Below are positions 1,541 through 18,649 of a DNA stretch of 64,000 nucleotides, piece after piece (position 1 is the stretch's first letter; each line of letters starts with the position of its first letter). Source of the DNA: Albimonas marina (GTDB lineage: Bacteria; Pseudomonadota; Alphaproteobacteria; Rhodobacterales; Rhodobacteraceae). A program made the translations under genes and the position numbers. The notes under the pieces were generated by a model. The model made no database searches, was not told the DNA's origin, and worked only from the letters and a program-made list of their open reading frames with translations. Location of the stretch: contig NZ_JARHUC010000007.1 in NCBI RefSeq assembly GCF_029223255.1, forward strand, positions 186,001 through 250,000. Direction: 5' to 3'.

Positions 1541-1598
1541 CGAGCCGGCTCCGAAGGGCGCTGGGAACGGGAAGGGGGGCGGAGGGCGCGCGCGTCCG

Positions 1599-2057
1599 TC
1601 AGGAGATCCGGTCGAGCAGGGCGACGAGGACGCGCCGCTCCTCCGGGTCGAGCGGGGCGAGCGTCTCCTGCGTGATCTCCAGCGCCACGGGGGCGACCTG
1701 GGCGAAGAGGGCGGCGCCCTCCTCGGTCAGCGAGACGATCAGGCGGCGGCGGTCCTCGAGGCTGGGCTCGGTCCGCACCAGGGCGCGCTTCGCGAGCCGG
1801 TCGATCACGCCCTTGATCGTCGCCGCGTCCATCGAGGTGGCGCGCCCCAGCTGGTTCTGGGAGGCGGGGCCTTCCTCGTGCAGCTTGGCGAGCGCGGCGA
1901 ACTGGCGAGGCGTCAGCTCGGGCATGCGGGCGGCGAAGATGGCCAGGTGGCGCTGGTTGGCCCGGCGCAGCAGGTGCCCCGCCTGCGAGGTCAGGCGGTA
2001 GGCGCCCGCCGCATCGGCCGGTTCCTCGCCCGTCGTCGCTGTGGTCGCCGCGGTCAC
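1599..2057 (-). CDS. MarR-family transcriptional regulator
   Basis: A 152-residue winged-helix regulator. The GTG at 2057 is chosen because GGGGGAGGAG sits just upstream; the open frame runs further 5' but into GC-rich non-conserved sequence. The helix-turn-helix covers roughly residues 62-90 ([20 protein letters not shown]) and the wing carries the family DRRR motif near residue 100. MarR proteins usually bind small aromatic or carboxylate ligands and repress divergent genes. Here it diverges from a molybdenum hydroxylase operon with a palindrome in the shared gap, so it probably controls that operon and itself. Confidence 0.88.
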
Positions 2058-2206
2058 TTGCTCTCCTCCCCCGCTTGCTGCGGTTTCCCTCTCCCCTAGC
2101 GCAGGTTCGAGGGAAAGGACAGGCCTGCCGACCGAGCGGCAAGCGAACGGCGGCAAGTTGGCAGGGGGCGGAGGCGCGCGTGGCGCGCCGCGCCGCGACT
2201 GGGCGA

Positions 2207-2256: not shown

Positions 2257-2305
2257 CCCCGCGCGCCGCGTTCCGCGCGCGCGGGGACCAGCCCCCGAGG
2301 GTCCC

Positions 2306-3157
2306 ATGAGCTACGAGCGCCCCGTCGACCTCGCCCGCGCCCTGGCGCTGCGCGCCGAGGGCGGGCGCACGGTGCTGGCCGGGGGCACCGACCTGTTGGC
2401 CGCGACCGAGGCGCGCGAGCTGCGCGGCCCGGTGCTGGACGTCACCGCGGTGGCCGAGATGCAGGGCGTGACGCTCTCCGACGCGGGCCTGCGGCTGGGC
2501 GGCGCGGCGAGCTGGACCGCGGTCGCGAAGGCGCCCCTGCCGGCGGCCTGCGCCGGGCTGCAGGCGGCGGCGCGGGTGGTGGGCTCGGCCCAGATCCAGA
2601 ACCGCGGCACCGTGGCGGGGAACCTGTGCAACGCCTCGCCGGCCGCGGATTCGGTCCCGCCGCTGCTGACGCTGGACGCGGAGGTGGAGCTCGCCTCCCT
2701 GCGCGGGAGCCGGCGCCTGCCGCTGTCGGCGTTCCTGAAAGGCCCCCGCCGCACGGCGCTGGCGGCGGACGAGCTGCTGGTGGCGGTCCATGTCCCCGCC
2801 GCCGCGCTGGCGGGGCAGGGGGCGTTCGAGAAGCTGGGCGCCCGGGCGCACCTGGTGATCTCGATCGGCATGGCGGCCGCGCGGGTGGTGGTCGCGCAGG
2901 GGCGCGTCGTCTCGGTCGCGCTCGCGGTCGGGTCGTGCTCCCCCGTCGCCGTTCGGCTGGGGGCGGCGGAGGCGGCCCTCGTCGACCTCGCCCCCGAGGC
3001 GCTTCCCGCGGCGCTGGAGGCGGAGCTGGTGGCCGCCGCCCTCGCGCCCATCGACGACGTGCGCGCCGACGCCGGCTACCGCCGCGCCGCGGCGCCGGAG
3101 CTTGCGCGCCGCGCGCTCGCCGCCGCCTGCCGGCCCCTGATGGAGACCGCCGCATGA
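2306..3157 (+). CDS. Xanthine dehydrogenase/CODH-family FAD-binding subunit
   Basis: This 283-residue protein is the medium (flavin) subunit of a molybdenum hydroxylase; it passes electrons from the Fe-S centres to FAD. The two FAD pyrophosphate-binding signatures are visible: LAGGTDLLA near residues 25-33 and GTVAGNLCNASPAAD near 103-117. The ATG at 2306 (MSYERP) fits the family start; the frame open upstream of it is non-conserved. Its stop overlaps the next start (ATGA at 3154), so translation is coupled to the Fe-S/Mo subunit. Substrate cannot be read from sequence. Confidence 0.9.
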   Translation: MSYERPVDLARALALRAEGGRTVLAGGTDLLAATEARELRGPVLDVTAVAEMQGVTLSDAGLRLGGAASWTAVAKAPLPAACAGLQAAARVVGSAQIQNRGTVAGNLCNASPAADSVPPLLTLDAEVELASLRGSRRLPLSAFLKGPRRTALAADELLVAVHVPAAALAGQGAFEKLGARAHLVISIGMAAARVVVAQGRVVSVALAVGSCSPVAVRLGAAEAALVDLAPEALPAALEAELVAAALAPIDDVRADAGYRRAAAPELARRALAAACRPLMETAA

Positions 3158-5901
3158 GCCTCGACGCCGCCGCGCCCGGCCTGTCGCTGACCCTCAACGG
3201 GCAGGCCGTCTCGCTTCCCGTATCGCCCGGGCGGCGCCTGTCGGACGCGCTGCGCGCGACGGGGACGCTGGGGGTGAAGTCGGGTTGCGACGCGGGCGAC
3301 TGCGGGGCCTGCACGGTGCTGCTCGACGGCGCGCCGGTCTGCGCCTGCCTGACCACCGCCGCCCAGGCGGAGGGGCGCGAGGTGCGCACGGTCGAAGGCT
3401 TGGGCGGCCCCGACGTCGACGCGCTCCAGCGCAGCTTCCTGCGCCACGGCGCGGCGCAGTGCGGGATCTGCACGCCGGGCATGCTGATGACCGCGACCGC
3501 CCTGCTGGCCGAGACCCCGCGCCCCACCCGCGCCGAGGCCGAGGCGGCGCTGGGCGGCGTGCTCTGCCGCTGCACCGGCTACGCCAAGATCATCGACGCG
3601 GTCTGCGAAGCCTGGCGCGAGACCCCCGGCGCCGCCCCCGCGCCCGCGCCCGCCGGCGCCCCCGTCGGCGCGCGGATCGAGCGGCTGGACGGCGCCCCGA
3701 AAGTCACGGGCGAGGAGCGCTTCGGCGCCGACGCCGCGCCGGAAGGGGCGCTGCTGGTGCGGGTGATCCGCTCCCCCCATCACCACGCCGGTTTCGCGTT
3801 CGGGGACCTGGCGGCCTGGGCCGAGGCGCAGGGCGTCGCGGCGGTGCTGACCGCCGCCGACGTGAAGGGCTCCAACCGCTTCGGCGTGATTCCGCCCTTC
3901 GCCGACCAGCCCGCGCTCGCCCCCTCTCCCGCCCGCTTCCGGGGCGAGGCGGTGGCGCTGGTGGTGGGCGAGGCGGAGGCGCTGGCCGCCCTCGACCTCT
4001 CGACCTTCCCGGTGACCTGGACCGAGCGGCCCCACGCCCTCGACCCCGAGACCGCGAAGACGGCCGCGCCCCTGCATCCCGACCGGCCGGGCAACCTGAT
4101 GACCGCGGGCTTCGTGGCGCAGGGCGACGCGGCCGCGGGCCTCGCCGCCGCCGCCGTCACCGCGACCGCCACAATCGAGACCGCCCATGTCGAGCACGCC
4201 TACATCGAGCCCGAGGCCGGCTGCGCCTGGCTCGACGGCGAGACGCTGGTGATCCAGGCCTGCACCCAGGCCCCGGTGATGGACCAGGAGGACACGGCGC
4301 AGACCCTGGGCCTCGACCCCGCCAAGGTGCGCATCATCCCCACCGCGGCAGGGGGCGGCTTCGGCTCGAAGCTCGACCTCTCGGTGCAGCCGCTGCTGGG
4401 CTTGGCCGTGCTGGCCACCGGCCGGCCCTGCCGGCTGGAGTTCACGCGGCGCGAGTCGCTCGCCTCGACCACCAAGCGGCACCCCGCCCGGATGACCGCC
4501 ACCCTCGGCGCGGACGCCGAGGGGCGGATCTGCGGCATGCATTTCGATGCCGACTTCAACACCGGCGCCTACGCCTCCTGGGGGCCGACGGTGGCGAACC
4601 GGGTGCCGGTGCACGCCTCCGGCCCCTACCGCACGCCCAACTACCGGGCCGAGGCGCGGGCGATCCACACCCATGTCACCCCCTCGGGCGCCTTCCGCGG
4701 CTTCGGCGTCCCCCAGGCGGCGCTGGTGCAGGAGCGGCTCTACGACGACCTCGCCGAGCAGCTCGGCCTCGACCGGCTGGAGTTCCGCATCCTCAACGCC
4801 CTGCGCGACGACGAGCCGACGGTCTGCGGCCAGCGCTTGAAGGGCGTGGGCATCGGCCCCTGCCTCGAGGCGCTGCGCGAGGACTGGGCGGAGGCGAAGA
4901 CCCGCGCGGTGGAGTGGACGCTGGCCCACCCCGAGCGCCCCCGCGGCGTCGGGGTCGCCGGGTGCTGGTACGGCTGCGGCAACACCTCGCTGCCCAACCC
5001 CTCCACCATGCGGGTGGGGGTGACGCCCGATGGCCGGCTGCGCCTGCACCAGGGGGCCACGGACATCGGCCAGGGCTCGAACACCGTCATCCCGCAGATC
5101 TGCGCCCAGGCGCTGGGCGTGGCGCCGGAGACGTTCGAGCTGGTCGGCCCCGACACCGCCCTGACCCCCGACTGCGGCAAGACCTCCGCCTCCCGCCAGA
5201 CGTTCGTCAGCGGCAACGCCGCCCGGCTGGCCGGCGAGGCCCTGCGCGGCGCGATCCTGCGCCTGGCGAACATGGGCGACGCCGCCGCGATCCGCCTGGG
5301 CGCCGGCGAGATCGTCGTCGAGGAGGCCGGCCAGACCCACCGCAGCGACCTCTCGCGCCTGCCCGTCGACGCCCACGGCTACGCCCTCTCGGCCGAAGAG
5401 ACCTACGACCCCCCCACCCTGCCGCTGGACGCGAACGGGCAGGGCGCCCCCTACGCCGTCTACGGCTGGGGCGCGCAGATGGCGGAGGTCGAGGTGGACC
5501 TCGCGCTCGGCACGGTGAAGGTGATCGCGATGACCGCCGCCCATGACCTCGGCCGCGTCATCAACCCGATGCTCGCCGAAGGGCAGATCGAGGGCGGGAT
5601 CGCCCAGGGCCTCGGCATGGCGCTGATGGAGGAGTTCATCCCCGGCCGGACCGAGAACCTGCACGACTACCTGATCCCCACCACCTCCGACATGCCATCG
5701 ATCCGCACGATCCTGCTCGAGGTGCCGGACCCCGAAGGCCCCTACGGCGCCAAGGGCCTGGGCGAGCACGCCCTGATCCCCACCGCGCCCGCGATCCTCA
5801 ACGCGGTCCGCCACGCCTGCGGGGCCGAGATCGACCGCCTGCCGGCCCTGCCGCACCGGGTGAAGGCCGCCATCGACGCCGCGAAGGGGGCCCGGCGATG
5901 A
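3154..5901 (+). CDS. Fused [2Fe-2S]/molybdopterin subunit, xanthine dehydrogenase family
   Basis: A 915-residue fusion of the small and large subunits of a molybdenum hydroxylase. Residues 1-165 carry two [2Fe-2S] sites: the plant-type set in GCDAGDCGACTVLLDG (about 45-60) and the helical set in CGICTPGM and LCRCTGY (about 107-145). From about residue 175 the Mo-cofactor domain shows GGGFGSK, GAFRGFG and GATDIGQGS, and GAKGLGEHAL with the catalytic glutamate near the C-terminus. GAFRGFG resembles xanthine oxidoreductases rather than CO dehydrogenase (AYxCSFR). FAD is supplied by the coupled upstream gene. Likely role: hydroxylation of an N-heterocycle or aldehyde with water as oxygen donor. 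No XdhC-type chaperone lies nearby. Confidence 0.9.
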   Translation: MSLDAAAPGLSLTLNGQAVSLPVSPGRRLSDALRATGTLGVKSGCDAGDCGACTVLLDGAPVCACLTTAAQAEGREVRTVEGLGGPDVDALQRSFLRHGAAQCGICTPGMLMTATALLAETPRPTRAEAEAALGGVLCRCTGYAKIIDAVCEAWRETPGAAPAPAPAGAPVGARIERLDGAPKVTGEERFGADAAPEGALLVRVIRSPHHHAGFAFGDLAAWAEAQGVAAVLTAADVKGSNRFGVIPPFADQPALAPSPARFRGEAVALVVGEAEALAALDLSTFPVTWTERPHALDPETAKTAAPLHPDRPGNLMTAGFVAQGDAAAGLAAAAVTATATIETAHVEHAYIEPEAGCAWLDGETLVIQACTQAPVMDQEDTAQTLGLDPAKVRIIPTAAGGGFGSKLDLSVQPLLGLAVLATGRPCRLEFTRRESLASTTKRHPARMTATLGADAEGRICGMHFDADFNTGAYASWGPTVANRVPVHASGPYRTPNYRAEARAIHTHVTPSGAFRGFGVPQAALVQERLYDDLAEQLGLDRLEFRILNALRDDEPTVCGQRLKGVGIGPCLEALREDWAEAKTRAVEWTLAHPERPRGVGVAGCWYGCGNTSLPNPSTMRVGVTPDGRLRLHQGATDIGQGSNTVIPQICAQALGVAPETFELVGPDTALTPDCGKTSASRQTFVSGNAARLAGEALRGAILRLANMGDAAAIRLGAGEIVVEEAGQTHRSDLSRLPVDAHGYALSAEETYDPPTLPLDANGQGAPYAVYGWGAQMAEVEVDLALGTVKVIAMTAAHDLGRVINPMLAEGQIEGGIAQGLGMALMEEFIPGRTENLHDYLIPTTSDMPSIRTILLEVPDPEGPYGAKGLGEHALIPTAPAILNAVRHACGAEIDRLPALPHRVKAAIDAAKGARR

Positions 5902-5922
5902 TCCCCGCCGCCCGCCTGCGCG

Positions 5923-6007
5923 AGGCCCCGGGCCAGGCCCGGGGCGCCGCGCGCCGGCCGCGCGCGCCGGCGCGCCCCCCGCGCGTCCCGGGCCCGACCC
6001 GGGACCT
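5923..6007. repeat. Two facing copies of an 18-bp intergenic motif
   Basis: The 148-bp gap between the Mo-hydroxylase and the Fe-S protein holds a minus-oriented copy (5923-5940) and a plus-oriented copy (5990-6007) of GGGCYYGACCCGGGRCCT, each with one mismatch. Four other plus-oriented copies lie in gaps at 29336, 41792, 43131 and 54384. The motif is rich in self-complementary CCCGGG and may fold in RNA. No gene was found in this gap. Confidence 0.5.
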
Positions 6008-6049
6008 CCCGCGGCCCGCCGCCCCGACCCCCGCCGGGAGCAAGGAGCC

Positions 6050-7543
6050 ATGATGGACGCCTCCGACCCCGCCCCCGAGACGCGCCGCAAGGTCGAGAAG
6101 ATCCGCTGCGACGCCTGCCCGGTGATGTGCTACGTGGCCGAGGGCAAGACCGGCGCCTGCGACCGCTACGCCAACCTGGGCGGCAAGATCGTGCGCTGCG
6201 ACCCGCTGACGGTGCTCGACCGCCGGATCGCGGCCGGCGACAGCGTGGTCCCCTTCCTCGCCGCCGACTGGAACGGCGAGATCGTCCTCGACGCCGACCG
6301 CTTCGTCACCGCCATCGGCGCCGGCACCACCTACCCCGACTACAAGCCCGCCCCGTTCATCGTGAGCCGCGAGGTCGAGGGCGCCGACCTCGTCACCGTC
6401 GTCACCGAGGCGATCTTCTCCTACTGCGGCGTGAAGGTGAAGATCGACACCGACCGCCACCTGGGCGCCGAGACCGCGACGGTCCGCGCGAAGGGCGAGC
6501 CGGTGGGGCATGTCACCACCGCCGAATACGGCTCCCAGATGCTGAGCCTCGGCGGCGTGCGCCACCTCACCGGCGGCGAGAAGGCCGAGGGCCGGGTGAC
6601 CTGCGAGACTCTGCTGGCGCTGTGCAACGGCGAGGCGGTGGAGCTGACCATCGACGACGGCGAGACCGTCGTCGTCCAGTCCGGCCAGGCCCCCATCGTC
6701 AATGGCGTGCGTGAAACCCGCATGCGGGTCGGCTGCGGCTCGGCCACCATCGGCATGTTCGCGACCCAGTGGCAGGGGCTGGTGGACGAGGTGGTGGTGG
6801 TCGACGACCACATCACCGGCGTCGTCTCCGAGCACCAGGCGGGCAAGGAGATCGGCTGGCCCGACACCGGCATCAAGATTCTGGGACGGCGCTCCACCCC
6901 CGGCCGCTACTTCCGCGTGGCCGAGCCCGGCACCGGCTGGGGCGGCACCAACGTCGACGATCCGCTGAAGATCCTGGGGCCCTGGAACCCGAAGAAAGGC
7001 GCCCGTCCGGGGCTGACCTTGCTGATGGTCTCTACCACCGGCGAGCAACACGCCTATTTCGTCCTCGACGACGACCTCGTCCCCCGTCCCGCGCCTCTGC
7101 CCGAGGCGCTGCGCGAGCCGGTCGAGATCATCGCCGAGAACTGCGAGCCGGCGCTGTGCACCGTGTTGTTCATGGGGGGCGCCGGCGGCTCGTTGCGCGC
7201 CGGCGTCACCCGCAACCCGGTGCGGCTGACGCGCTCGGTCCAGGGGACCGAGACCACGCTGACCTGCGGCGGCGCGCCCGTCTACGTCTGGCCGGGAGGA
7301 GGCATCACGATGATGGTCGACGTCTCGACCCTGCCCGAGCGCAGCTTCGGCTACGTGCCGACGCCGGCGCTGGTGGCGCCGCTGGAATTCACCTTGCCCC
7401 GCGAGGCCTACGCCCGCATGGGCGGGCACGAGGGCGCGATCCGCCCGGTCGAGGACGTGCTGGCGCGCGGCGGCGAGTATGGCGACGCCTCGCGATCCCT
7501 CGGCGCGAAGGGCGGCCCGGCGTGGCCGCCGCGGGGGAAATGA
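6050..7543 (+). CDS. 6-hydroxynicotinate reductase-like Fe-S protein
   Basis: A 497-residue protein matching what databases call 6-hydroxynicotinate reductase, the enzyme that reduces 6-hydroxynicotinate to 1,4,5,6-tetrahydro-6-oxonicotinate. A cysteine cluster C20-x2-C23-x3-C27-x9-C37 near the N-terminus is a plausible [4Fe-4S] site. The start has AAGGAG six nucleotides upstream; two ATG codons are adjacent (6050, 6053). Its stop overlaps the UPF0280 start (ATGA at 7540). Neighbouring Mo-hydroxylase genes would supply the hydroxylated ring that such a reductase uses. The family name rests on few characterised members, so the exact substrate is open. Confidence 0.72.
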   Translation: MMDASDPAPETRRKVEKIRCDACPVMCYVAEGKTGACDRYANLGGKIVRCDPLTVLDRRIAAGDSVVPFLAADWNGEIVLDADRFVTAIGAGTTYPDYKPAPFIVSREVEGADLVTVVTEAIFSYCGVKVKIDTDRHLGAETATVRAKGEPVGHVTTAEYGSQMLSLGGVRHLTGGEKAEGRVTCETLLALCNGEAVELTIDDGETVVVQSGQAPIVNGVRETRMRVGCGSATIGMFATQWQGLVDEVVVVDDHITGVVSEHQAGKEIGWPDTGIKILGRRSTPGRYFRVAEPGTGWGGTNVDDPLKILGPWNPKKGARPGLTLLMVSTTGEQHAYFVLDDDLVPRPAPLPEALREPVEIIAENCEPALCTVLFMGGAGGSLRAGVTRNPVRLTRSVQGTETTLTCGGAPVYVWPGGGITMMVDVSTLPERSFGYVPTPALVAPLEFTLPREAYARMGGHEGAIRPVEDVLARGGEYGDASRSLGAKGGPAWPPRGK

Positions 7544-8457
7544 GCGGCCCGGTCGGGGACGAGGCCCAGCCCCACGTCCCCCGCGGCTTCGGCACGCAGA
7601 CCTCCGGCCCCCAGGGCCGGATGCTGCCCGACGGCCGCCGCCTGCACCTGCATCACGGCCCCATCGACCTGGTGATCGAGGCCGACGGCGACGACGCCGA
7701 GGCCGAGGCGGCCCTGCTGCAGGCCGCCCGCCGCTTCGACGGTTTGCTCGAGGAACTGGTGGCCGAGCTGCCGCTCCTGCGCGCGCCGCTGGACCCCGCG
7801 GCGCCGCCCCCGCTCGAGGGCGCGGTGGCGCGGCGGATGCTGGCCGCCACGCTGCCCTTCGCCACCGGGTTCGTCACCCCCATGGCCGCCGTCGCCGGCG
7901 CCGTGGCCGACGAGGTGCTCGCTGCGATGACCCGCGGCCGCACGCTGCGCAAGGCCTACGTCAACGACGGCGGCGACGTCGCCCTGCACGTCGCGCCGGG
8001 CGAGGAGCTGGTGGCCGCGCTGGCGGTGGGCGAGCGGGCGAGGAACGCCGGCTCCGCCGTGGTGCGCCACGGCGATCCTACGCGGGGCATCGCCACCTCC
8101 GGCCGGGGCGGGCGCAGCCTGTCGATGGGCGTGGCCGAGGCGGTGACCGTCCTCGCCCCCAACGCGGCCCTCGCCGACGCCGCCGCCACCCTGATCGCCA
8201 ACGCCGTCGACCTGCCGGGCCACCCCGCCGTGCGCCGCGGCCCCGCCTGCGACGAGGACCCCGACAGCGACCTGGGCGAGCGGCTGGTGACGCTGGCCGT
8301 GGGCGAGCTGCCGCCCGAGGACGCGGCCCGCGCGCTCGACGCCGGCCTCGCCGTCGCCGAGGGCTTCCGCGCCCGCGGCCTGATCCAGGCCGCCGCCCTG
8401 TTCCTGCAGGACGAGACCCGGGTCTGCGGCCCGCTCTCGTCCGCCGAGATCGATTGA
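7540..8457 (+). CDS. UPF0280 family protein
   Basis: A 305-residue member of UPF0280, a family related to the ApbE flavin-transferase fold but of unproven activity. The start overlaps the previous stop (ATGA), so the two are translationally coupled. Visible family blocks are GRMLPDGRRLHLHHGPIDLVI near residue 25, a KAYVNDGGDVALH stretch near 145 and the SGRGGRSLSMGVAEAVTV block near 188. It is repeatedly found beside 6-hydroxynicotinate-reductase-like and DUF1185 genes in proteobacteria (from memory), as here. A role in maturing the Fe-S or flavin enzyme of this locus is speculation. Confidence 0.75.
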   Translation: MSGPVGDEAQPHVPRGFGTQTSGPQGRMLPDGRRLHLHHGPIDLVIEADGDDAEAEAALLQAARRFDGLLEELVAELPLLRAPLDPAAPPPLEGAVARRMLAATLPFATGFVTPMAAVAGAVADEVLAAMTRGRTLRKAYVNDGGDVALHVAPGEELVAALAVGERARNAGSAVVRHGDPTRGIATSGRGGRSLSMGVAEAVTVLAPNAALADAAATLIANAVDLPGHPAVRRGPACDEDPDSDLGERLVTLAVGELPPEDAARALDAGLAVAEGFRARGLIQAAALFLQDETRVCGPLSSAEID

Positions 8458-8483
8458 AGAACCCGAGGGGAGAAACCGAGAGA

Positions 8484-9065
8484 ATGGCCGAGTTCCGCAT
8501 CCGCCGCACCGCGCTGACGGTGGAGGAGATCTTCCACGAAGGCGGCCCCGCCCCCGAGACCCCGCGCCGCCGCGCGGCGATGCTGGCCATCGTCTCGAAC
8601 CCCTTCGCGGGCCGCTGGGTCGAGGACATCCAGGGCGCGATGGAGGACCTCAAGCCCCTGGGCGCGATGATGTCCGAGCGGCTGGTCGAGGCGATGGGCG
8701 GCCCCGACAAGGTCGACGCCTACGGCAAGGGCGCCATCGTCGGCGAGGGCGGCGAGATCGAGCACGGCGCCCTGTGGCACGTGCCCGGCGGCTACGCGAT
8801 GCGCGGGCTGGTCAGCCCCTCGAAGGCGATCGTGCCCTCGGCGATGAAGGTGGGCGGGCTGGGCGCGCGGCTCGACGTGCCGCTGGGCCACGTGAACGCG
8901 GCCTACGTCCGCTCCCATTTCGACGCGATGGAGGTGGGCCTGCCCGACGGTCCCCGCGCCGGAGAAATCCTGTTCGCGTTGGTCATGGCGCAGGGCGGGC
9001 GCGTCCACAGCCGCATGGGCGGGCTCGAGGCCTGGGACGTGACCGGCGAGGACGGGCTGCGCTGA
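8484..9065 (+). CDS. DUF1185 / amino acid synthesis family protein
   Basis: A 193-residue protein of the family annotated AA_synth (DUF1185). The start is set by AGGGGAG about ten nucleotides before the ATG. Features include AIVSNPFAGRW near residue 35, HVPGGYAMRGLVSPSKAIVPS near 98 and a conserved HVNAAYVRSHFD near 137. The family has no proven biochemical role. It follows UPF0280 by 26 nt and closes this part of the run before a strong hairpin at 9102. Co-occurrence with the reductase and UPF0280 suggests a shared pathway. Confidence 0.75.
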   Translation: MAEFRIRRTALTVEEIFHEGGPAPETPRRRAAMLAIVSNPFAGRWVEDIQGAMEDLKPLGAMMSERLVEAMGGPDKVDAYGKGAIVGEGGEIEHGALWHVPGGYAMRGLVSPSKAIVPSAMKVGGLGARLDVPLGHVNAAYVRSHFDAMEVGLPDGPRAGEILFALVMAQGGRVHSRMGGLEAWDVTGEDGLR

Positions 9066-9546
9066 TCCGGCCCGCGCCGCCCCCCGACGCGGGCGGCGGA
9101 CAGGCCCCGGACGGAGGGGCGGCCCTCCGGCGTCCGGGGCCTCGGGCCGGTTCCCCGCGCCTCCCCGCGGGGTCGTCCCGGGGGCGGCTCGCGTTCGGCC
9201 GCGCCCCACGGCCCGGCGGCGCGTCGCCGACCGGGGCCGTGCGGAGACGTTGGCGACCGGCAACCGTCGCGCCACTACAAGGTTTCAAATCAATACGAAA
9301 ATCGATCCGACGGCCGTCCGCCGCGCGGCGCCGCGCGATCCCGCGCGCCCGCCGTCTGACGCAGCGTTTTCAGAGCACTGTTCGCCAACCTTATCATCGC
9401 GCGACGAAATTCCGCGATCCCCTCCCGGGGAGGGGCGAGTTTGAAACCGCTGTTTGATCCTTGTTGACTGGCCGGCAGGACGATGGTCTGAATGTCGCAA
9501 AGCGCCGTGCAGGCAACGGGACGCGGCGCGATACTGGGAGGACATC
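9066..9546. other. 481-bp gap before the TRAP genes
   Basis: No credible gene. It holds the hairpin at 9102-9142 and then a drop in GC from about 9280 to 9470, the only AT-richer stretch for several kb. This fits a promoter region for the TRAP genes. A TTGACT at 9464-9469 could be a -35, but the matching -10 is poor. Confidence 0.6.
9102..9142 (+). terminator. Strong hairpin, possible terminator
   Basis: A 12-bp perfect outer stem (9102-9113 with 9131-9142) encloses a 5-bp inner stem (GAGGG/CCCTC) with a GCGG tetraloop. It lies 36 bp after the DUF1185 stop. No T-run follows, so it may pause or protect RNA rather than terminate. Confidence 0.45.
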
Positions 9547-10590
9547 ATGACCAACGAATCGCGCGGCGTCAGCCGTCGCGGGATGCTGGGCGGCGCGGCC
9601 GCCATCGGCGTCGCCGCCCCCGCCTTCATCGGCAAGGCCATCGCCCAGGGTCAGGTGACCTGGCGGGTCCAGTCGCACTGGCCCAAGGCGTCCGTGTCGT
9701 TCAACGACAGCCTGGTGAAGCTGGCCTCGATCCTCGAGGACAAGACCGACGGCGCCTTCAAGATGGAGCTCTTCGGCGCCGGCGAGTTCGCCAAGGGCCC
9801 CGAGATCTTCGCCATCACCCAGCGCGGCATCGTGCAGATGGGCACGGGCTCGGCCTCCTACTACGAGAACGAGGGCACCTGCTCGGGCTTCGCCTACGGC
9901 ATCCCCGGCACGCTGCGCAACGCGCTCGAGCAGATGCACTACATCAAGAACATGGGCGTCGAGGAGCTGTTCGCCTCCGAGCTCGCCGAGAAGGGCATCA
10001 TCTACAAGGCCGAGAAGGCCTACCCGACCGAGCTGGTCGTGTCGAAGAAGGTGAACTCGGTCGAGGACTTCCAGGGTCTGAAGCTGCGCTCCTCGGGCAC
10101 CATGCTCGACTACCTGACCGCCGCCGGCGCCTCGGCGAGCTACATCGCGGGCTCCGAGCTCTACCAGGCGCTCTCCTCCGGCGTGGTCGACGGCGCCCAC
10201 TGGGGCGCGGCCCAGGGCGCCCAGTCGATGTCGCTGTGGGAGGTGTGCAAGCATCACTACCGCCCGCCGCTCGGCTTCACCGACGACGCGTGGATCTTCA
10301 ACGCCGACGCGGTCGAGGCGCTGCCCGACGACATCCGCACCATCTTCGACGCGGCGATCGAGACGCGCTACTTCCTGCGCTCGGCCGAGTACATGCACCT
10401 CGAGGCGAAGGCGCTGTCGGAGGGCGTGGCGAACGAGGGCATCACCGTCGAGGAGTTCCCCGACGACGTGCTGGAGCTGTTCACCAAGGCCTCGAGCGAC
10501 ATCATCGAGAAAGAGGCCGCGAAGTCCGAGAAGGCCGCCACCTGCGCGGACAACCTGCGGACCCTGATGAAGGACCTCGGCTACACCTGA
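9547..10590 (+). CDS. TRAP transporter solute-binding protein (DctP family), copy 1
   Basis: A 347-residue periplasmic receptor of a tripartite ATP-independent transporter. The N-terminus has a twin-arginine-like signal (SRRGMLGGAA, cleavage expected after AIAQG near residue 36). DctP motifs are clear: GAGEFAKGPEIF near residue 78 and SELYQALSSGVVDGAHWGAA near 205, the region that binds the carboxylate ligand through arginine. The ATG follows GGGAGGAC. It is a close paralogue of the next gene. TRAP receptors usually bind organic acids; the adjacent Mo-hydroxylases suggest a heteroaromatic or related carboxylate. Confidence 0.92.
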   Translation: MTNESRGVSRRGMLGGAAAIGVAAPAFIGKAIAQGQVTWRVQSHWPKASVSFNDSLVKLASILEDKTDGAFKMELFGAGEFAKGPEIFAITQRGIVQMGTGSASYYENEGTCSGFAYGIPGTLRNALEQMHYIKNMGVEELFASELAEKGIIYKAEKAYPTELVVSKKVNSVEDFQGLKLRSSGTMLDYLTAAGASASYIAGSELYQALSSGVVDGAHWGAAQGAQSMSLWEVCKHHYRPPLGFTDDAWIFNADAVEALPDDIRTIFDAAIETRYFLRSAEYMHLEAKALSEGVANEGITVEEFPDDVLELFTKASSDIIEKEAAKSEKAATCADNLRTLMKDLGYT

Positions 10591-10608
10591 GGCGCGCCGA
10601 CGTGATCG

Positions 10609-10667
10609 CCGCCCCGCCGCAGCGCGGGGCGGACCAGGCGCGGCTCCGCCCGGCGACGGGCGGAGCC
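10609..10667 (+). other. Two hairpins between the TRAP receptor genes
   Basis: Two perfect stem-loops occur in tandem: CCGCCCCGC/GCGGGGCGG (10609-10632) and an 11-bp stem GGCTCCGCCCG/CGGGCGGAGCC with a GCGA tetraloop (10642-10667). They have no T-run. Such structures between a receptor gene and its downstream genes often stabilise upstream mRNA, giving more binding protein than permease. Confidence 0.55.
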
Positions 10668-10717
10668 TGCGTCATGCGCAACCGGCGCGAAGACCGGTTC
10701 GCCAGGGGAGGAGACCC

Positions 10718-11788
10718 ATGACCCAGAACACGACCCCCGGGCCCCGCTCGGCCACCCGCCGCGCATGGCTGAAGGGCGCCGCCGGCGCCGGGGCCGTCAC
10801 GCTCGCCGCCCCGGCCCTGATCGGCCCCGCCATCGCGGCCGGCGAGGTGGAATGGCGCGTCCAGGCCGTCTGGCCCAAGGCCTCGTCGTCCTTCGACGGC
10901 TCGCTCGGCAAGCTCGCCTCGATGCTCGAGGAACGCACCGACGGCCGCTTCCGCTGGCAGCTGTTCGGCGCGGGAGAGCTGGCCAAGGGGCCGGAGATCT
11001 TCAACATCGTCTCGCGCGGCGTGGCGCAGGCGGGGACGTCCTCGGCCTCCTACATGGCCGACGTCTCCTCGGTCTCGGCCTTCGCTTACGGCATTCCGGG
11101 CACGCTCCAGGACTACTGGCAGCAGAGCCATCTGCAGAAGAACCTCGGCATCGAGGCGATGATGAGCGCCGAGACCGAGAAGCACGGCGTCATCTACAAG
11201 GCCGAGAAGTCCTACCCGACCGAGCTGATCCTGAAGGCGCCGATCGAGAACGCCGAGGATTTCTCGCGGCTCAAGCTGCGGGCCTCGGGCGCGCTTCTGG
11301 ATTACCTCGCGGCCGCGGGCGCCTCGCCCAGCTTCGTGCCGACCTCCGAGCTCTACCAGGCGCTGTCCACGGGCGTGGTCGACGGGGCCCATTACGGCGC
11401 GGCGGTGGGGGCCAAGACCCTCTCGCTGTGGGAGGTGTGCAAGTATCACATGAAGCCGGCGCTCGCCTTCAGCTCCGACGCCTGGGTGTTCAACGCCGAC
11501 GCGATGGAGGCGCTGCCCGACGACCTGCGCCTGCACCTGACCGCCCTGCTGGAGGAGCGCTATTACGCGCGCACCACCGAGTACCAGCTCCTCGAGACCC
11601 TCGCCATCAAGGACGGGGTCGAGAACCAGGGCGTGACGGTGATGCAGTTCCCCGACGACGTGCAGGAGCGCATGGCCAAGGCCTCGGCCGAGATCCTTGC
11701 GCGGGAGGCCGAGCGTTCGGAGGCCGCCGCCACCGCCGCGGACCGGCTGAACGAGTTCATGTCCCAGCTCGGCATCGAGCGCGGCTGA
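10718..11788 (+). CDS. TRAP transporter solute-binding protein (DctP family), copy 2
   Basis: A 356-residue paralogue of the preceding receptor. It shares GAGELAKGPEIF near residue 85, SASYMADVSS near 108 and SELYQALSTGVVDGAHYGAA near 208. The signal region has a twin arginine (ATRRAWLKGAAGAG) with cleavage expected near AIAAG. The ATG at 10718 follows AGGGGAGGAG. Two receptors for one DctQM permease suggest two related ligands or dosage by duplication; the proteins differ enough to be an old duplication. Binding residues cannot be assigned to a substrate by eye. Confidence 0.92.
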   Translation: MTQNTTPGPRSATRRAWLKGAAGAGAVTLAAPALIGPAIAAGEVEWRVQAVWPKASSSFDGSLGKLASMLEERTDGRFRWQLFGAGELAKGPEIFNIVSRGVAQAGTSSASYMADVSSVSAFAYGIPGTLQDYWQQSHLQKNLGIEAMMSAETEKHGVIYKAEKSYPTELILKAPIENAEDFSRLKLRASGALLDYLAAAGASPSFVPTSELYQALSTGVVDGAHYGAAVGAKTLSLWEVCKYHMKPALAFSSDAWVFNADAMEALPDDLRLHLTALLEERYYARTTEYQLLETLAIKDGVENQGVTVMQFPDDVQERMAKASAEILAREAERSEAAATAADRLNEFMSQLGIERG

Positions 11789-11943
11789 GCCGCGCCCCAA
11801 GCGGCCCGCGCGCCGCGGCCCGAGGCGTCCGGTCCCCAGGGGCGCCTCCGAAGATCCGCCGCCCGTTCCCCCCGGGGCGCGGGCGGTCCCCCCCGCCGAC
11901 CCGGTTCCGGCCCCGCGCCGGACCGTGCAGTTCCCGAGGTCCC

Positions 11944-12507
11944 ATGTTCGCCTCCTTCGCCCGAGCGATCACCTCGCTCAACCGATGGATCGGACGGATC
12001 GCCGCCTGGGTGGTGATCCCGCTGTTCCTGCTGCTGTTGTGCGACGTGGTCATGCGTTATTTCGCCGGCCGCCCGCTGATCTGGACGTCCGAGACCGCGC
12101 AGCTGGTCTTCGCCGTCTACGGCACCATCGCCGGCGGCTGGCTGCTGGCCGAGCGCGGCCACGTCAACGTCGACATCTTTTACGGAAACTTCAGCCCGAA
12201 GCGGAAGGCGCTGGCGGACCTGTCCACCTGCTTCCTGTTCCTGCTGTTCGTGGGCGTGCTGCTGTGGCAGGGCCTCGACCTCGCGATCGAGAGCTACGAG
12301 AAGCTCGAGCGCTCGAACTCGGCCTGGAAGCCGCAGATCTGGTTCGTGAAGTTCTTCATTCCCGTCTCCGCGCTGCTGCTGTTCCTCCAGGGGATCGTGC
12401 GCATCGTCGCGGACGTGCGGGTGCTGATGGGCCTGCCCATCCCTGACGACATCTACGGCGCCCCCGCGACCAAGGGTCCGGCCCACGGCGAGGAGGGCGA
12501 GGCATGA
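11944..12507 (+). CDS. TRAP transporter small permease (DctQ)
   Basis: A 187-residue inner-membrane protein with four hydrophobic segments (about residues 17-37, 50-72, 88-110 and 130-150). The DctQ signature DVVMRYFAGRPLIWTSETA follows the first. It pairs with DctM to form the sodium-coupled permease. The ATG at 11944 is taken because the upstream frame is not conserved; the Shine-Dalgarno (GAGGT) is weak. It overlaps the dctM start by four bases (ATGA at 12504), the usual arrangement for stoichiometric synthesis. Confidence 0.92.
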   Translation: MFASFARAITSLNRWIGRIAAWVVIPLFLLLLCDVVMRYFAGRPLIWTSETAQLVFAVYGTIAGGWLLAERGHVNVDIFYGNFSPKRKALADLSTCFLFLLFVGVLLWQGLDLAIESYEKLERSNSAWKPQIWFVKFFIPVSALLLFLQGIVRIVADVRVLMGLPIPDDIYGAPATKGPAHGEEGEA

Positions 12508-13820
12508 GCGTCGAACTGATGACCCTGATCTTCTTCGGGGCGCTGCTGTTCTTCCTGTTCCTGGGAACCCCGCTGACCTTCGTGCTCGGCGGCCTGTCCT
12601 CGATCTTCCTGTGGTGGAAGTGGGGGGACATGGCGTTCTACCTGATCGCCTCGAAGCTCTGGGACTCGATGTCGAGCTTCACGCTCGTGGCCATCCCCCT
12701 GTTCGTCTTCATGGCGATGATGCTCGAACGATCAGGCGTGGCGCATGATCTATACCGCATGATGCACGTGTGGTGGGGCGGCATCCGGGGCGGTCTCGCC
12801 ATCGGCACCGTGGCGATCTGCGCGATCTTCGCGGCCATGTGCGGCATCTCCGGCGCGGCCGTGGTCACCATGGGCACCATCGCCCTGCCGCGGATGCTCG
12901 AGCGGGGCTACGACTCCAAGATGGCGCTGGGCGCGATCAACGCCGGCGGCGGCTGGGGGATCCTGATCCCGCCCTCGATCCTGATGGTGCTCTATGCCCT
13001 TCAGACCGAGGTTTCGGTCGGCCGGCTCTTCGCGGCGGGCATCGGGCCGGGGCTGCTGCTGTTCGTGCTGGTCTCGATCTACATCGCCGTGCGCTGCTGG
13101 CTTCAGCCCTCGATGGGCCCGGCCCTGCCGCCGGAGGAGCGCGCGGGCTGGGACGTGAAGCTGAAGTCGCTGGCCGCGGTGATCCTGCCGCTGTTCATCG
13201 TCTTCATCGTGCTCGGCTCGATCTTCGGCGGCTTCGCGACGCCGACCGAGGCCGCGGCCATCGGCGTCTTCGGCGCCATGGTGGCGGCGGCGGTGAACCG
13301 GCAGCTGACCTTCAAGAACATCTCGGACTCGGCCAAGGCGACGCTGAAGCTGACCACGATGATCATGTGGATCCTGTTCGCCGCGCACGCCTTCTCGGCG
13401 GCCTACACCGCGCTGGGCGCCCAGGCGCTGATCTCGGACGTGGTCGAGCTGATCCCGGGCGGCAAGTACGGCGGTCTCGCCTTCATGATGGCGGTGCTGT
13501 TCTTCCTGGGCATGGTGCTCGATCCCGTGGGCATCATGCTGATCACGCTGCCGGTGTTCCTGCCGATCATCGCGGCCAACGGCTTCGACCCGATCTGGTT
13601 CGGCATCCTGTTCGTGATCATGATGGAGGTCGGCTACATGACCCCGCCCTTCGGCTTCAACCTCTTCTACCTGAAGGGCGTTGCGCCTCCGGGCATCGGC
13701 ATGGGCGAGATCTACGCCTCGGTCATCCCCTACGTGCTGGTCACGCTGCTGGGGCTGGCGCTGATCGTGATCTTCCCCTCGATCGCGCTCTACCTGCCCG
13801 AGCTGTTCTTCTCCCGCTAG
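12504..13820 (+). CDS. TRAP transporter large permease (DctM)
   Basis: A 438-residue polytopic membrane protein of about 12 helices and the catalytic channel of the TRAP system. Typical DctM stretches are LFVFMAMMLERSGVAHDLY near residue 68, GILIPPSILMVLYALQTEVS near 151 and GYMTPPFGFNLFYLKGV near 377. It is translationally coupled to dctQ. A good terminator-like hairpin follows at 13843, separating it from the stand-alone Mo-hydroxylase gene downstream. Confidence 0.95.
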   Translation: MSVELMTLIFFGALLFFLFLGTPLTFVLGGLSSIFLWWKWGDMAFYLIASKLWDSMSSFTLVAIPLFVFMAMMLERSGVAHDLYRMMHVWWGGIRGGLAIGTVAICAIFAAMCGISGAAVVTMGTIALPRMLERGYDSKMALGAINAGGGWGILIPPSILMVLYALQTEVSVGRLFAAGIGPGLLLFVLVSIYIAVRCWLQPSMGPALPPEERAGWDVKLKSLAAVILPLFIVFIVLGSIFGGFATPTEAAAIGVFGAMVAAAVNRQLTFKNISDSAKATLKLTTMIMWILFAAHAFSAAYTALGAQALISDVVELIPGGKYGGLAFMMAVLFFLGMVLDPVGIMLITLPVFLPIIAANGFDPIWFGILFVIMMEVGYMTPPFGFNLFYLKGVAPPGIGMGEIYASVIPYVLVTLLGLALIVIFPSIALYLPELFFSR

Positions 13821-13842
13821 GGAAGGACGCCCGGACCTGACG

Positions 13843-13880
13843 GGGGGCGGCGAAGGCTCTGGCCATCGCCGCCCCCTTGT
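13843..13880 (+). terminator. Terminator-like hairpin after dctM
   Basis: An 11-bp perfect stem GGGGGCGGCGA/TCGCCGCCCCC (13843-13853 with 13866-13876) with a 12-nt loop, followed by TTGT. It lies 22 bp after the dctM stop. The T-tract is short, so termination may be partial. Confidence 0.55.
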
Positions 13881-14012
13881 GCCTTCATGCCCCCGGATCC
13901 GCCCGGCGGCCGCCCCCCGCGACCTTCGCCGACCGGACGGCTCCCGCGCCCGCGCCCTGCGGGCCCGCGCCTCCCATTCGCCGACGGTCCCCCGATCGAA
14001 GGAGCCTCCCCG

Positions 14013-16325
14013 ATGACCGACCAGCGCCGCGGACGCCGCGAGGACGTCCGATTCACCTCCGGCCGGGGCCGCTATTCCGACGACGTGAAGGTGGAGGGCG
14101 CGCTGCACGTGGCCTTCGCCCGCGCCCCCCAGGCCAGCGGCGCGCTGCGCGACCTCGACGTCTCCGCCGCGCTGGAGATCCCGGGCGTCGTCGCGGCGCT
14201 GACCGCGGCCGACCTCGCCGCCGACGGGATCGACCCGTTCTCGGTCCCCGCCAAGGTGAAGGGCGTCGAGCCCGACGGGACCGGGGAGCGGCTGTGGACC
14301 CAGACGCCGCGCCCGTTTCTCGTCGCCGACCGCCTGCGCCATGCCGCCGAGCCGGTGGCGATGATCCTGGCCGAGACCGCCCACGCCGCCGCCGACGGGG
14401 CCGAGGCCGTGAGCTTCGACGTCGACGAGACGCCCGCCGTCCTGACCCTCGACGACGCCCGGGCCGAGGGCGCGCCGCTGGTCTGGGACGACCACCCCGG
14501 CAACATCGCCTACGTCTGGGCCAAGGGCGACTGGGCCGCGGCGGGCGAGGCGCTGGCCGCCTCCGCCCACGTGACCCGCCTGCGCAGCCACGTCAGCCGC
14601 GTCGCCGCCGCCACGATGGAGCCGCGCGCCTGCGTCGCCTCCCCCGGCGCGGACGGGCGGCTGACGGTCTGGGCCTCGATCCAGAACGCGCCCTCGATGC
14701 GCGGCGCGCTGGCCGCGATCCTCAAGCGCCCGGCCGAGGAGTTCCGCGTGATCGCCCCCGACGTGGGCGGCAGCTTCGGCATGAAGTCCGGCCCCCTGCG
14801 CGAGGAGATCCTCTGCGCCTGGGCCGCCCTGCGCCTGGGCCGCCCCGTGCGCTGGACCGCCACCCGCTCCGAGGCGCTGCTCTCGGACGAGCCGGGGCGC
14901 GACATGCTGGCGGAGGCGGAGCTGGGCCTCGACGCAGAGGGCCGCTTCACCGCACTGCGCGCGCGCCTGACGCCCAACGTGGGCGCCTACGTCTCCGGCC
15001 GCTCGCTGGTGGCGATCGGGAACTTCGGCGGCGTCTCGGGCACCTACCGGCTGCCGGTCACGGCGGGGCAGGTGGTGGGCGTCTTCTCCAACGCCACGCC
15101 CTCCGCCCCCTACCGCGGCGCCGGTCGGCCGGAGGCGACCTACCTCGTCGAGATGGCCATCGACCAGGCGGCGCGGGAGCTCGGCCTCGACCGGGTCGAG
15201 CTGCGCCGGCGCAACCTGGTCCCGCCCGAGGCGATGCCCTGGGACACCGGCTTCATCTTCTCCTACGACAGCGGCGACTTTCCCGCGGTGATGGAGCAGG
15301 CGGCGCAGGCGGCCGACCTCGCGGGCTTCCCTGCGCGGCGCGCGGAGTCGGAGGCCAAGGGCCTGCTGCGGGGCCTGGGCGTGGCCAACTGCATCGAGGT
15401 CGCGGGCGGCCCCTTCGGCGTCGTCTCCCCCGACCATTCCGAGGCGACGATCGGGACCGACGGCCGCATCCGGCTCGCGGTCGGGGTGATGTCGGCGGGG
15501 CAGGGGCTCGAGACCGCGATGGTCGGGCTGGCGGCCGCGCAGCTCGGCGTCTCCGAGGAGCTGATCGACTACGTGCAGGCCGACACCGATGCGCTGGAGG
15601 TGGGCAAGGGCATGGGCGGCTCGGCCGCCATGACCACCGGCGCCCCCGCGGTGCGCGAGGCGGTGGCGAAGGTGATCGAGGCCGCGAAGGAACGCGCGGC
15701 CGAGGCGATGGAGGTCGCGATCGCCGATCTCGAATACGCCGACGGCGCGGTGCGCATCGCCGGCACCGACCGCGCCATGACGCTGGCCGAGATTGCCCGC
15801 GCGGCGGAGGCGCGCGACATGGCGCTGACCGCGCGCGGCTCCTTCAAGCCGTCGGACTGCACCTATCCCAACGGCTGCCATGTCTGCGAGGTGGAGATCG
15901 ACCCCGAGACGGGCGCCTGCCGCATCGCCGCCTACACGGGCGTCGAGGACATCGGCCACGTGATCTATCCGCAGATGGCCGAGGGGCAGGTGCAGGGCGG
16001 CGTGGTGCAGGCGCTGGGCCAGGTGCTGTTCGAGCAGGTGGTCGCCGATCCCGACGGCCAGGTCCTGTCGGCGAGCTTCATGGACTACGCCATGCCCCGC
16101 GCCGCGGACCTGCCCCCCATCGCCTGCGCCTTCGCCGAGGGCATGCCGACCGCGATCAATCCGCTGGGCGCCAAGGGCGTGGGGGAGGCGGGCTCGGTCG
16201 GGGCGCTGTCGGCGGGAATGTCGGCGGTGCGCGACGCGCTGGCCTGCGCCGGGGTCGAGAACTTCGACATGCCCGCGACGCCCGTTCGGGTGTGGAGCGC
16301 GCTCCAAACCGCGCGCGGGAGCTGA
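14013..16325 (+). CDS. Stand-alone molybdenum hydroxylase large subunit
   Basis: A 770-residue molybdopterin-binding large subunit of the CO dehydrogenase/xanthine dehydrogenase superfamily. Motifs in order: RFTSGRGRYSDD near residue 12, GGSFGMKSG near 252, APYRGAGRPEA near 368, SAGQGLETA near 493 and GAKGVGEAGS near 720 with the catalytic glutamate. YRGAGR matches form II CoxL-type enzymes, whose substrates are mostly unknown, not true CO dehydrogenase. The ATG follows GAAGGAG. No Fe-S or FAD subunit accompanies it, so it may share those of the first hydroxylase (2306-5901) or partners elsewhere. Confidence 0.9.
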   Translation: MTDQRRGRREDVRFTSGRGRYSDDVKVEGALHVAFARAPQASGALRDLDVSAALEIPGVVAALTAADLAADGIDPFSVPAKVKGVEPDGTGERLWTQTPRPFLVADRLRHAAEPVAMILAETAHAAADGAEAVSFDVDETPAVLTLDDARAEGAPLVWDDHPGNIAYVWAKGDWAAAGEALAASAHVTRLRSHVSRVAAATMEPRACVASPGADGRLTVWASIQNAPSMRGALAAILKRPAEEFRVIAPDVGGSFGMKSGPLREEILCAWAALRLGRPVRWTATRSEALLSDEPGRDMLAEAELGLDAEGRFTALRARLTPNVGAYVSGRSLVAIGNFGGVSGTYRLPVTAGQVVGVFSNATPSAPYRGAGRPEATYLVEMAIDQAARELGLDRVELRRRNLVPPEAMPWDTGFIFSYDSGDFPAVMEQAAQAADLAGFPARRAESEAKGLLRGLGVANCIEVAGGPFGVVSPDHSEATIGTDGRIRLAVGVMSAGQGLETAMVGLAAAQLGVSEELIDYVQADTDALEVGKGMGGSAAMTTGAPAVREAVAKVIEAAKERAAEAMEVAIADLEYADGAVRIAGTDRAMTLAEIARAAEARDMALTARGSFKPSDCTYPNGCHVCEVEIDPETGACRIAAYTGVEDIGHVIYPQMAEGQVQGGVVQALGQVLFEQVVADPDGQVLSASFMDYAMPRAADLPPIACAFAEGMPTAINPLGAKGVGEAGSVGALSAGMSAVRDALACAGVENFDMPATPVRVWSALQTARGS

Positions 16326-16872
16326 TTCGAGCCGCTGCAGAGCGATTCGTCGCCGACTCGCGTTTTTCCGCCCGGACGCCCCCGAACGGCGCGGCGCCGA
16401 CGTGACGCGCGTGTGAGAAACCAGACGTTTGACCCGGCGGGCGTGCAAAACCGCTTGCCGGAAACGCCGACCTGTGAGAATTCGGAAGCAGGCGCTGCGG
16501 GCTCAGGGACCCCTCCGAAGCCCGCGCCCCTCGTCCGATCGCACCGCCGCAAGAGCGGGAGGCCGGGCGTAGCGCCGGCCCGGGGGAGGCGTCCGCAAGG
16601 CCGCCCCGGAACCCCGGTCGAAGAACCGCGTCGGTGCGCGCGGCACGCCAACCTGTCGCCGGCAGGCCCGAGGGCCGCCGCCGCGACGAACGAAAGACCC
16701 CCTTGCAGATTTTCGCGGCCCCCGGCCTCGCCGAGATCGTTCCCGCGCCCGTCCAGGGCCCCGGACGCATTCCGGCCTCGCCAAGCTCCCCAGCGGCGGG
16801 GCCGTTCTGGATTCGTCGTCGCGGCCTGGTCGGCGCGGCGCGGATGGGCGCCCGGTAGAAGGAGACATCACC
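16326..16872. other. 547-bp gap upstream of the cold-shock gene
   Basis: No convincing protein gene; open frames here have random-looking proline/arginine-rich translations. A less GC-rich patch at about 16405-16490 is the likeliest promoter area. If so, the cold-shock mRNA has a long structured leader of several hundred bases, as known for cspA-type genes whose leaders act as temperature-sensitive switches. Confidence 0.5.
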
Positions 16873-18574: not shown

Positions 18575-18649
18575 AGACCCCGCTTGCGCGCCGGTAGGGA
18601 AGGCCCGATAGCACGCGCCGGGGGGATTTCTCGGCAAGGATTCGGGAAG

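Follow-up and report, generated by a model that had tools for sequence, protein, structure and literature searches.

A probable nicotinate catabolic operon of the reductive type in Albimonas marina, with a caprolactamase-like candidate for the ring-opening step

We analysed a 64,000-nucleotide stretch of Albimonas marina DNA (hereafter the window; C20:186001-250000 of genome G000) that carries part of a gene cluster probably serving the reductive breakdown of nicotinate. The original prediction had described a run of genes on one strand behind a MarR regulator and next to pncB. All of the genes named between 2306 and 16325 are present as open frames on the + strand, in the order given, with domains found by hidden Markov model searches (the permeases by sequence and position). 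On the - strand lie pncB, which encodes the nicotinate phosphoribosyltransferase of the nicotinamide adenine dinucleotide (NAD) salvage branch (245..1540; NF003704 490.7 bits, cut-off 379; TIGR01514 280.8, cut-off 269.55; NAPRTase domain), and the gene of the MarR-family regulator (1599..2156; PF01047), divergent from the core. The core on the + strand begins with the flavin adenine dinucleotide (FAD) subunit of a molybdenum (Mo) hydroxylase (2306..3157; PF00941 (FAD_binding_5) and PF03450) and its fused 2Fe-2S and Mo-cofactor subunit, a candidate nicotinate 6-hydroxylase (3154..5901; PF00111/PF01799/PF01315/PF02738/PF20256, Fer2/Fer2_2/MoCoBD). Next come HnrL, of the 6-hydroxynicotinate-reductase family (6050..7543; homologues annotated Hnr), and a UPF0280 (COG2122) protein, a candidate Hnr maturation factor (7540..8457; NF003322 366 bits, cut-off 290), whose start overlaps the hnrL stop. 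The core ends with a DUF1185 protein of clade a (8484..9065; PF06684 226 bits, cut-off 27), from the family of TgnF and HcdD, which matches 3byq at E 3e-55.

The locus reaches further upstream than position 2306, where it had been supposed to begin; the window edge cuts it, and it continues in the same genome, where the adjacent DNA was taken as stretch L167. This DNA holds pncA for a nicotinamidase (C20:173362-173970, - strand; NF008623 207.7 bits, above the equivalog cut-off of 174), livK, livH, livM, livG and livF for an ATP-binding cassette (ABC) importer (C20:175977-180783; LivK is a Peripla_BP_6 protein), hyuA (C20:180985-183024; Hydantoinase_A) and hyuB (C20:183021-184766; Hydantoinase_B). 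For both Hyu proteins the best NCBIfam match is a caprolactamase subunit, below its cut-off.

From the content, order and homology of these genes we infer that the core is probably an operon for nicotinate catabolism by the reductive route, which runs through 1,4,5,6-tetrahydro-6-oxonicotinate (THON), with HyuAB opening the ring and UPF0280 serving HnrL. Nicotinate would enter via the Liv-type transporter or come from nicotinamide by PncA, the Mo-hydroxylase (2306-5901) would convert it to 6-hydroxynicotinate, and HnrL would reduce this to THON. The upstream HyuAB (C20:180985-184766), as an ATP-dependent lactamase, would then open the lactam in place of an enamidase of the Eubacterium barkeri type, and ring opening with loss of ammonia would lead to 2-formylglutarate. 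UPF0280 would serve HnrL, most likely in flavin or sulfur maturation, and DUF1185 would act at or after ring opening, while PncB would draw off part of the nicotinate for NAD, and expression would be under the control of the MarR protein. Nicotinate is the likely substrate because nicotinamidase and pncB flank the core, which agrees with the earlier proposal of Mo-dependent hydroxylation followed by ring reduction. Under this reading, marine and soil bacterial genes labelled only 'hydantoinase', 'amino acid synthesis family' or 'UPF0280' would gain a likely pathway, and a second, ATP-dependent opening of the reduced nicotinate ring is proposed.

The core had been put forward as an undescribed system; it is instead of the known reductive nicotinate type of Azorhizobium and Bradyrhizobiaceae. 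PMC3511419 places a reductive nicotinate cluster in these bacteria, with an Hnr 42% identical to that of E. barkeri, and reports that strain SG-6C, which has an Hnr cluster, uses nicotinate and 6-hydroxynicotinate as its only source of carbon. Because this cluster type is already described there, the window holds a variant of it. The clusters of Azorhizobium caulinodans, Bradyrhizobiaceae and SG-6C have in common with the window the Hnr homologue, the first three steps, the ABC importer and two conserved unknown proteins that we read as UPF0280 and DUF1185, whereas our locus has HyuAB with no enamidase found in the genome, both pncA and pncB, and adjacent genes for a tripartite ATP-independent periplasmic (TRAP) importer and a lone Mo subunit, MoL2. 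With the fermentation of E. barkeri, outlined in PMC9304392, the route proposed here would share the step from 6-hydroxynicotinate to THON and a hydrolytic opening to 2-formylglutarate. E. barkeri differs in its enamidase and in a nicotinate dehydrogenase with split Mo subunits (3hrd chains), where the window has a fused Fe-S/Mo subunit. What seems to be new is the apparent use of HyuAB for enamidase, the tie between Hnr and UPF0280, and two DUF1185 clades that track the type of ring-opener. No description of a HyuAB variant of the nicotinate route was found in the literature searched, subscription journals lying mostly outside that search.

We then compared 111 Hnr loci, namely 80 from GTDB genomes, 10 from plasmids (out of 26 hits there), 20 from a survey of 299 Pseudomonadota genomes, and the window. 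The GTDB relatives are the best 80 of at least 590 and so form a close sample (HnrL 71-78% identical); the survey had 21 Hnr genomes, the 21st being the window's own. All loci were scored by tblastn with fixed thresholds, and many are short contigs or carry about 10 kb of flank, so that the absence of distant genes is weak evidence: neither HyuB nor enamidase appears in 43 of the 54 GTDB loci (of 80) that span at least 21 kb. The trio of HnrL, UPF0280 and DUF1185 is present in 99 of the 110 other loci, a recurrence beyond chance; its order recurs, and a Mo-hydroxylase accompanies it in 89 of these 99. The trio thus stays with Mo-hydroxylases, as the original prediction had anticipated, but not with TRAP genes. 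Together with a window-type Mo enzyme and an FAD subunit it occurs in 76 of the 110, and in 67 with MarR too. Counted singly, UPF0280 is found in 108/111 loci, Mo-hydroxylase in 101/111, DUF1185 in 100/111, MarR relatives in 87/111 (86/110 excluding the window), LivK in 51/111, nicotinamidase in 47/111, and pncB in 4/111 including the window (3/110 others). Of the three loci without UPF0280, L016 and L057 stop no more than 260 bases past HnrL, while in L013 some 1.5 kb of sequence remains; among the ten without a Mo match, the contigs of four (L021, L035, L044, L070) end inside a partial Mo match and the other six have none in the stretch.

In the survey, the first candidates were scored for each genome (5 for Hnr, 8 for UPF0280, 4 for HyuB and up to 6 for enamidase), with limits of E 1e-150 for HyuB and 1e-40 for enamidase. 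Hnr was found in 21/299 genomes from nine genera. HyuB orthologues (66-100% identity) occurred in 13 genomes and enamidase orthologues (61-76% identity) in 10, all of them Hnr-positive, and between them the two covered every Hnr genome: 11 had HyuB only, 8 enamidase only, and 2 both. At this level of identity neither was present in any of the 278 Hnr-negative genomes; a HyuB match at 44% (G280) and enamidase matches at 41-42% in G238 and G289, which lack Hnr, were set aside. With ancestry ignored, Fisher tests gave 1e-17 for HyuB with Hnr, 3e-13 for enamidase with Hnr (2e-11 keeping the two weaker matches) and 2e-4 for mutual avoidance of HyuB and enamidase within Hnr genomes. Where both ring-openers were present (G123, G194), the enamidase lay on a contig different from Hnr's; overall, enamidase was within about 16 kb of Hnr in 8 of its 10 genomes. 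Among the 111 loci, with their limited flanks, 25 had HyuB, 8 had enamidase and none had both.

The two ring-openers also swap along the Hnr phylogeny. The Hnr tree was built from the 44 of 111 loci with a nameable ring-opener and a long unbroken HnrL (33 of Hyu and 11 of enamidase type; G016, whose Hnr is split, was excluded), the label being taken from the genome survey, not the fetched stretch, in 8 Hyu rows (among them G123 and G194, which also hold enamidase elsewhere) and 3 enamidase rows. On this tree ring-opener type needs at least 3 changes, a number that well supported branches force. The enamidase of the Sulfitobacter mediterraneus Hnr cluster matches the solved enamidase 2vun at E 1.8e-105 over residues 1-385; the closest that the window genome comes to an enamidase is a match at E 8.4e-4, restricted to query residues 23-106. 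Caprolactamase opens its lactam in an ATP-dependent reaction. The window HyuAB has caprolactamase CapAB as its best NCBIfam match, at sub-cut-off scores and with another substrate proposed here, and the best PDB match of HyuB is 6yra. Judged by these sequence patterns, a caprolactamase-like HyuAB seems to do the job of the enamidase in this locus.

Several observations weigh against this assignment and against the proposed pathway as a whole. HyuA and HyuB score 492.6 and 303.9 bits against the caprolactamase models NF050156 and NF050157, far under the cut-offs of 1000, and with 12 HyuB-family matches in the window genome the family is broad. Of the 13 survey genomes with HyuB, only 6 have it at a distance of 15 kb or less from Hnr. 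The co-occurrence counts ignore shared ancestry, two genera supplying 14 of the 21 Hnr genomes, and the survey scoring was limited to the first few candidates per genome. HnrL is identified via annotated homologues; the Mo enzyme of the window is nearer to aldehyde oxidoreductase than to nicotinate dehydrogenase; the 38 kb surrounding the core in the window genome yielded no ferredoxin reductase at the tblastn thresholds; and one Hnr genome (G139) lacks DUF1185.

HnrL is named as it is because its homologues are annotated '6-hydroxynicotinate reductase'; it is 58-75% identical to plasmid-encoded proteins, most of which carry this annotation, so the earlier call of a 6-hydroxynicotinate-reductase-like protein stands. 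Scans of HnrL itself against Pfam and NCBIfam gave nothing at E <= 0.001. The alignment of 31 sequences (A1) shows nine invariant cysteines, at positions 20, 23, 27, 37, 126, 185, 192, 229 and 365. An AlphaFold2 model from 31 close homologues had a predicted local distance difference test score (pLDDT) of 68.7 and a predicted template-modelling (TM) score of 0.64, and Foldseek returned zero matches for it at E <= 0.001; we draw no claim on the fold because of this low-confidence model and the null search. A weak GCV_T_C signal runs through the family (21/31 at a lax limit, best E 5.1e-4), the window HnrL scoring 17.5 bits, under the cut-off of 25.9. In G016 (C1:2969808-2971234; L116, L117, L181) Hnr is split into two frames with a 4-base overlap at about position 243 of the profile; the gene is either broken or exists there in a two-gene form.

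The first Mo enzyme consists of two genes, for the FAD subunit and for the fused 2Fe-2S/Mo subunit, the latter with a GAKGLGE motif at residue 865. In the PDB the fused subunit is closest to the aldehyde oxidoreductase 1dgj, and nicotinate dehydrogenase 3hrd is matched as well. The window enzyme is Xdh-like, whereas enamidase-type survey genomes mostly have the NicAB type (8/11). This variation between loci, which takes 4 changes across the 40 callable rows of the Hnr tree, is one ground for thinking that the same chemistry might act on another pyridine carboxylate or an N-methylated relative such as trigonelline or picolinate, the specificity of HnrL and HyuAB having shifted with the Mo enzyme. 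Three marine plasmid Hnr clusters, which also encode a Rieske-type oxygenase together with a ferredoxin reductase, and the presence of DUF1185 in clusters resembling trigonelline degradation would fit this idea too. We nevertheless think it improbable: nicotinamidase lies around Hnr in 47 of the 111 loci and pncB in 4, the window included, sister clusters have enamidase orthologues, and SG-6C, an Hnr-cluster strain, uses nicotinate according to PMC3511419. On homarine as a substrate, the literature search gave nothing useful. The ring-hydroxylating oxygenases of the plasmid clusters lie at L092 17535-18605, L205 17574-18644 and L207 18082-19149 and could N-demethylate an N-methyl pyridine carboxylate.

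UPF0280 was found in all 21 Hnr survey genomes, on the same strand and adjoining Hnr by coordinates, and among the 278 Hnr-negative genomes there was one marginal match (G293, 18.8 bits), with a profile built from Hnr-linked rows that distant UPF0280 proteins may escape. The tie in 21/21 Hnr genomes of the surveyed Pseudomonadota offers a simple non-methanogen system for the function of COG2122, a family whose model NF003322 is named 'hypothetical protein' and whose RefSeq relatives are called 'UPF0280 family protein'. UPF0280 is most likely a maturation factor of HnrL, for flavin or for sulfur, and the earlier suggestion of a maturation role stays plausible.

The AlphaFold2 model of UPF0280 (pLDDT 91) retrieved first the COG2122 protein 2o34 (two chains) and then solely ApbE, Ftp and FmnB proteins through rank 41. 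Three chains were at E <= 0.001, one of them ApbE, and the match to 3pnd_A had E 4.1e-4, probability 1.00 and a TM score of 0.42. UPF0280 is predicted to have the ApbE flavin-transferase fold, and the NxGGD and ATSG motifs and the ApbE-aligned D213 and T217 are invariant in 27/27 sequences; fold, motifs and D/T positions are common to ApbE/Ftp/FmnB and COG2122 (DVU1097, 2o34; MA1715). The catalytic His of ApbE sits in an H[IL][IL]DP stretch, which, in contrast to ApbE/Ftp/FmnB, is found in 0/27 UPF0280 sequences, and when the profile of UPF0280 was set against the ApbE encoded in the window genome, the similarity was not significant (p 0.081). On the acceptor side, the ApbE motif is D..[ST]GA[ST]; the strict form occurs in 0/31 HnrL sequences and [ST]GA[ST] in 1/31, while [ST]G[AVS][ST], present in 18/31, is too loose to say much. 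Work by Alhapel in 2006 reportedly found a covalent flavin on E. barkeri Hnr. A flavin role for UPF0280 is therefore attractive though unproven. In its full form, which we put forward tentatively and consider rather unlikely, UPF0280/COG2122 would be a dedicated HnrL flavinylation enzyme with the ApbE fold and another active-site loop, its kin would flavinylate the DUF39 proteins that form homocysteine in methanogens and sulfate reducers, and HyuAB would be an ATP-driven substitute for enamidase.

A sulfur role is the real rival. According to PMC5764234, the COG2122, DUF39 and NIL/ferredoxin proteins are all needed in homocysteine synthesis, and COG2122 homology apparently stops short of the flavin-binding region of ApbE; PMC12068725 describes MA1715 as a sulfur trafficking protein. 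It is quite conceivable, if somewhat short of an even chance, that UPF0280 likewise delivers sulfur or Fe-S to HnrL, as proposed for the methanogen COG2122 protein. The missing H[IL][IL]DP stretch, the nine invariant cysteines of HnrL and its lack of the strict acceptor motif speak for delivery of this kind, whereas the invariant NxGGD, ATSG and D213/T217 of UPF0280 and its structural neighbours at ranks 3-41, all ApbE/Ftp/FmnB though with one such chain at E <= 0.001, speak for flavin.

DUF1185 was found in 20/21 Hnr genomes and in 21/278 Hnr-negative ones, which rules out that it is exclusive to nicotinate loci; G139, with Hnr and no DUF1185, rules out that it is essential. Its tree (46 rows, made by a quick method with long branches flagged, TgnF and HcdD themselves lying outside it) has two clades linked to Hnr, named a and b; the window copy belongs to a. 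When loci were sorted by their best reference match, clade b was present in 11/11 enamidase loci and 4/34 Hyu loci, and clade a in 5/11 and 32/34, respectively (Fisher 1e-7 for b and 1e-3 for a, ancestry ignored). Two Hyu loci were scored with neither clade: L183 (G139), and L039, whose match is too short for the count. Of 13 copies from Hnr-less stretches, 11 are placed away from the part of the tree that is linked to Hnr. On the Hnr-less contig of L186 both clades adjoin enamidase, and in G238 (L176) and G289, again without Hnr, another DUF1185 adjoins an enamidase-like gene. A role for DUF1185 in ring opening or a later step appears more likely than one on HnrL.

Elsewhere, DUF1185 keeps other company. 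In L169 (7801-13568, no Hnr) it stands with an alpha/beta hydrolase, a flavin reductase, a luciferase-like monooxygenase and an aldehyde dehydrogenase, and in L177 (9010-11935, no Hnr) beside an alpha/beta hydrolase and an aldehyde dehydrogenase, neighbourhoods that we take to be reminiscent of trigonelline (Tgn) degradation; judged by lengths only, L170-L175 have a run of genes partly like those of L169/L177. Genome G000 has a second DUF1185 gene (C19:102334-102852; L168 4254-4874), on a contig other than that of its sole Hnr match, with, by eye, an acyltransferase-like and a cytidine triphosphate (CTP) synthase-like frame as neighbours. The window protein shares PF06684 with TgnF and HcdD, which belong to trigonelline and 7-hydroxycoumarin degradation. 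PMC7913881 states that TgnF of A. baylyi, a homologue of HcdD, stimulates TgnE-dependent oxidation of succinic semialdehyde and that every attempt to see such stimulation with the DUF1185 protein HcdD failed; PMC2954203 instead suggested, on the strength of genome context, a link of DUF1185 to amino-acid metabolism.

Downstream of the core lie, all on the + strand, the TRAP receptors DctP 1 (9547..10590; PF03480) and DctP 2 (10718..11788; PF03480), 57% identical to each other, a small permease (11944..12507) and a large permease (12504..13820), whose relatives in L220 are 62% and 79% identical, and MoL2 (14013..16325; PF02738, PF20256; NF041018 510.8 bits, below the cut-off of 790), a Mo-hydroxylase catalytic subunit resembling CoxL and glyceraldehyde dehydrogenase. 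Two Mo-hydroxylases had been called here: the first is borne out, whereas the second is a lone Mo subunit, and nothing else in the whole window resembled the FAD or 2Fe-2S subunit of the first enzyme at E <= 0.001. These genes probably form a separate neighbouring module. Neither the TRAP receptors nor MoL2 was detected by the tblastn thresholds in any of the 110 other Hnr loci, 94 of which extend 5 kb or more beyond Hnr on its downstream side. In G491 (L220), which has no Hnr match, a receptor, both permeases and MoL2 are consecutive, in the window's order. Among 244 genomes of the order, with four candidates scored in each, the sole further MoL2 relative above 50% is that of G423 (53%), which has no TRAP match in the surrounding 19 kb and whose genome carries Hnr on a separate contig. 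The nearest solved structures to receptor 1 are 2hzk, labelled a sorbitol/mannitol transporter, and a keto-acid-binding protein. Given these counts and the Liv-type ABC importer encoded upstream, the predicted role of the TRAP genes, as importer of nicotinate, is not supported.

The single strand and unbroken gene order would suit a view of 2306-16325 as one system, in which TRAP imports the ring compound and MoL2 performs a second hydroxylation, and a recent gain of function is conceivable, the window being the only copy seen. The absence of the receptors and MoL2, at the thresholds applied, from the 110 other loci, the joint occurrence of a receptor, both permeases and MoL2 in the Hnr-less G491 and the solved relatives of receptor 1 make that view highly improbable. 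The 481-base gap between the DUF1185 half and the TRAP half argues against it as well, with a promoter-like site at 9369-9397 that fits a separate TRAP transcript. This site, just upstream of the TRAP genes, is the sole one of its kind in 1500-16700 (shuffles: mean 0.3 expected).

Among the remaining features, a MarC-type gene (C20:185265-185906) lies between hyuB and pncB. The whole of G000 (5.8 Mb) has 13 matches to Mo-hydroxylase large subunits and 12 to Hydantoinase_B. Frames with RTX-like glycine-aspartate repeats flank the locus on both sides (window 18584-19753; L167 1128-3131, by eye). A putative membrane protein, recognised by eye and without a Pfam or NCBIfam match, is encoded at C20:174329-175879 (L167 6329-7879), and its presence near livK is conserved in L089 (16897-18270), L091 (8161-9570) and L095 (6737-8200).

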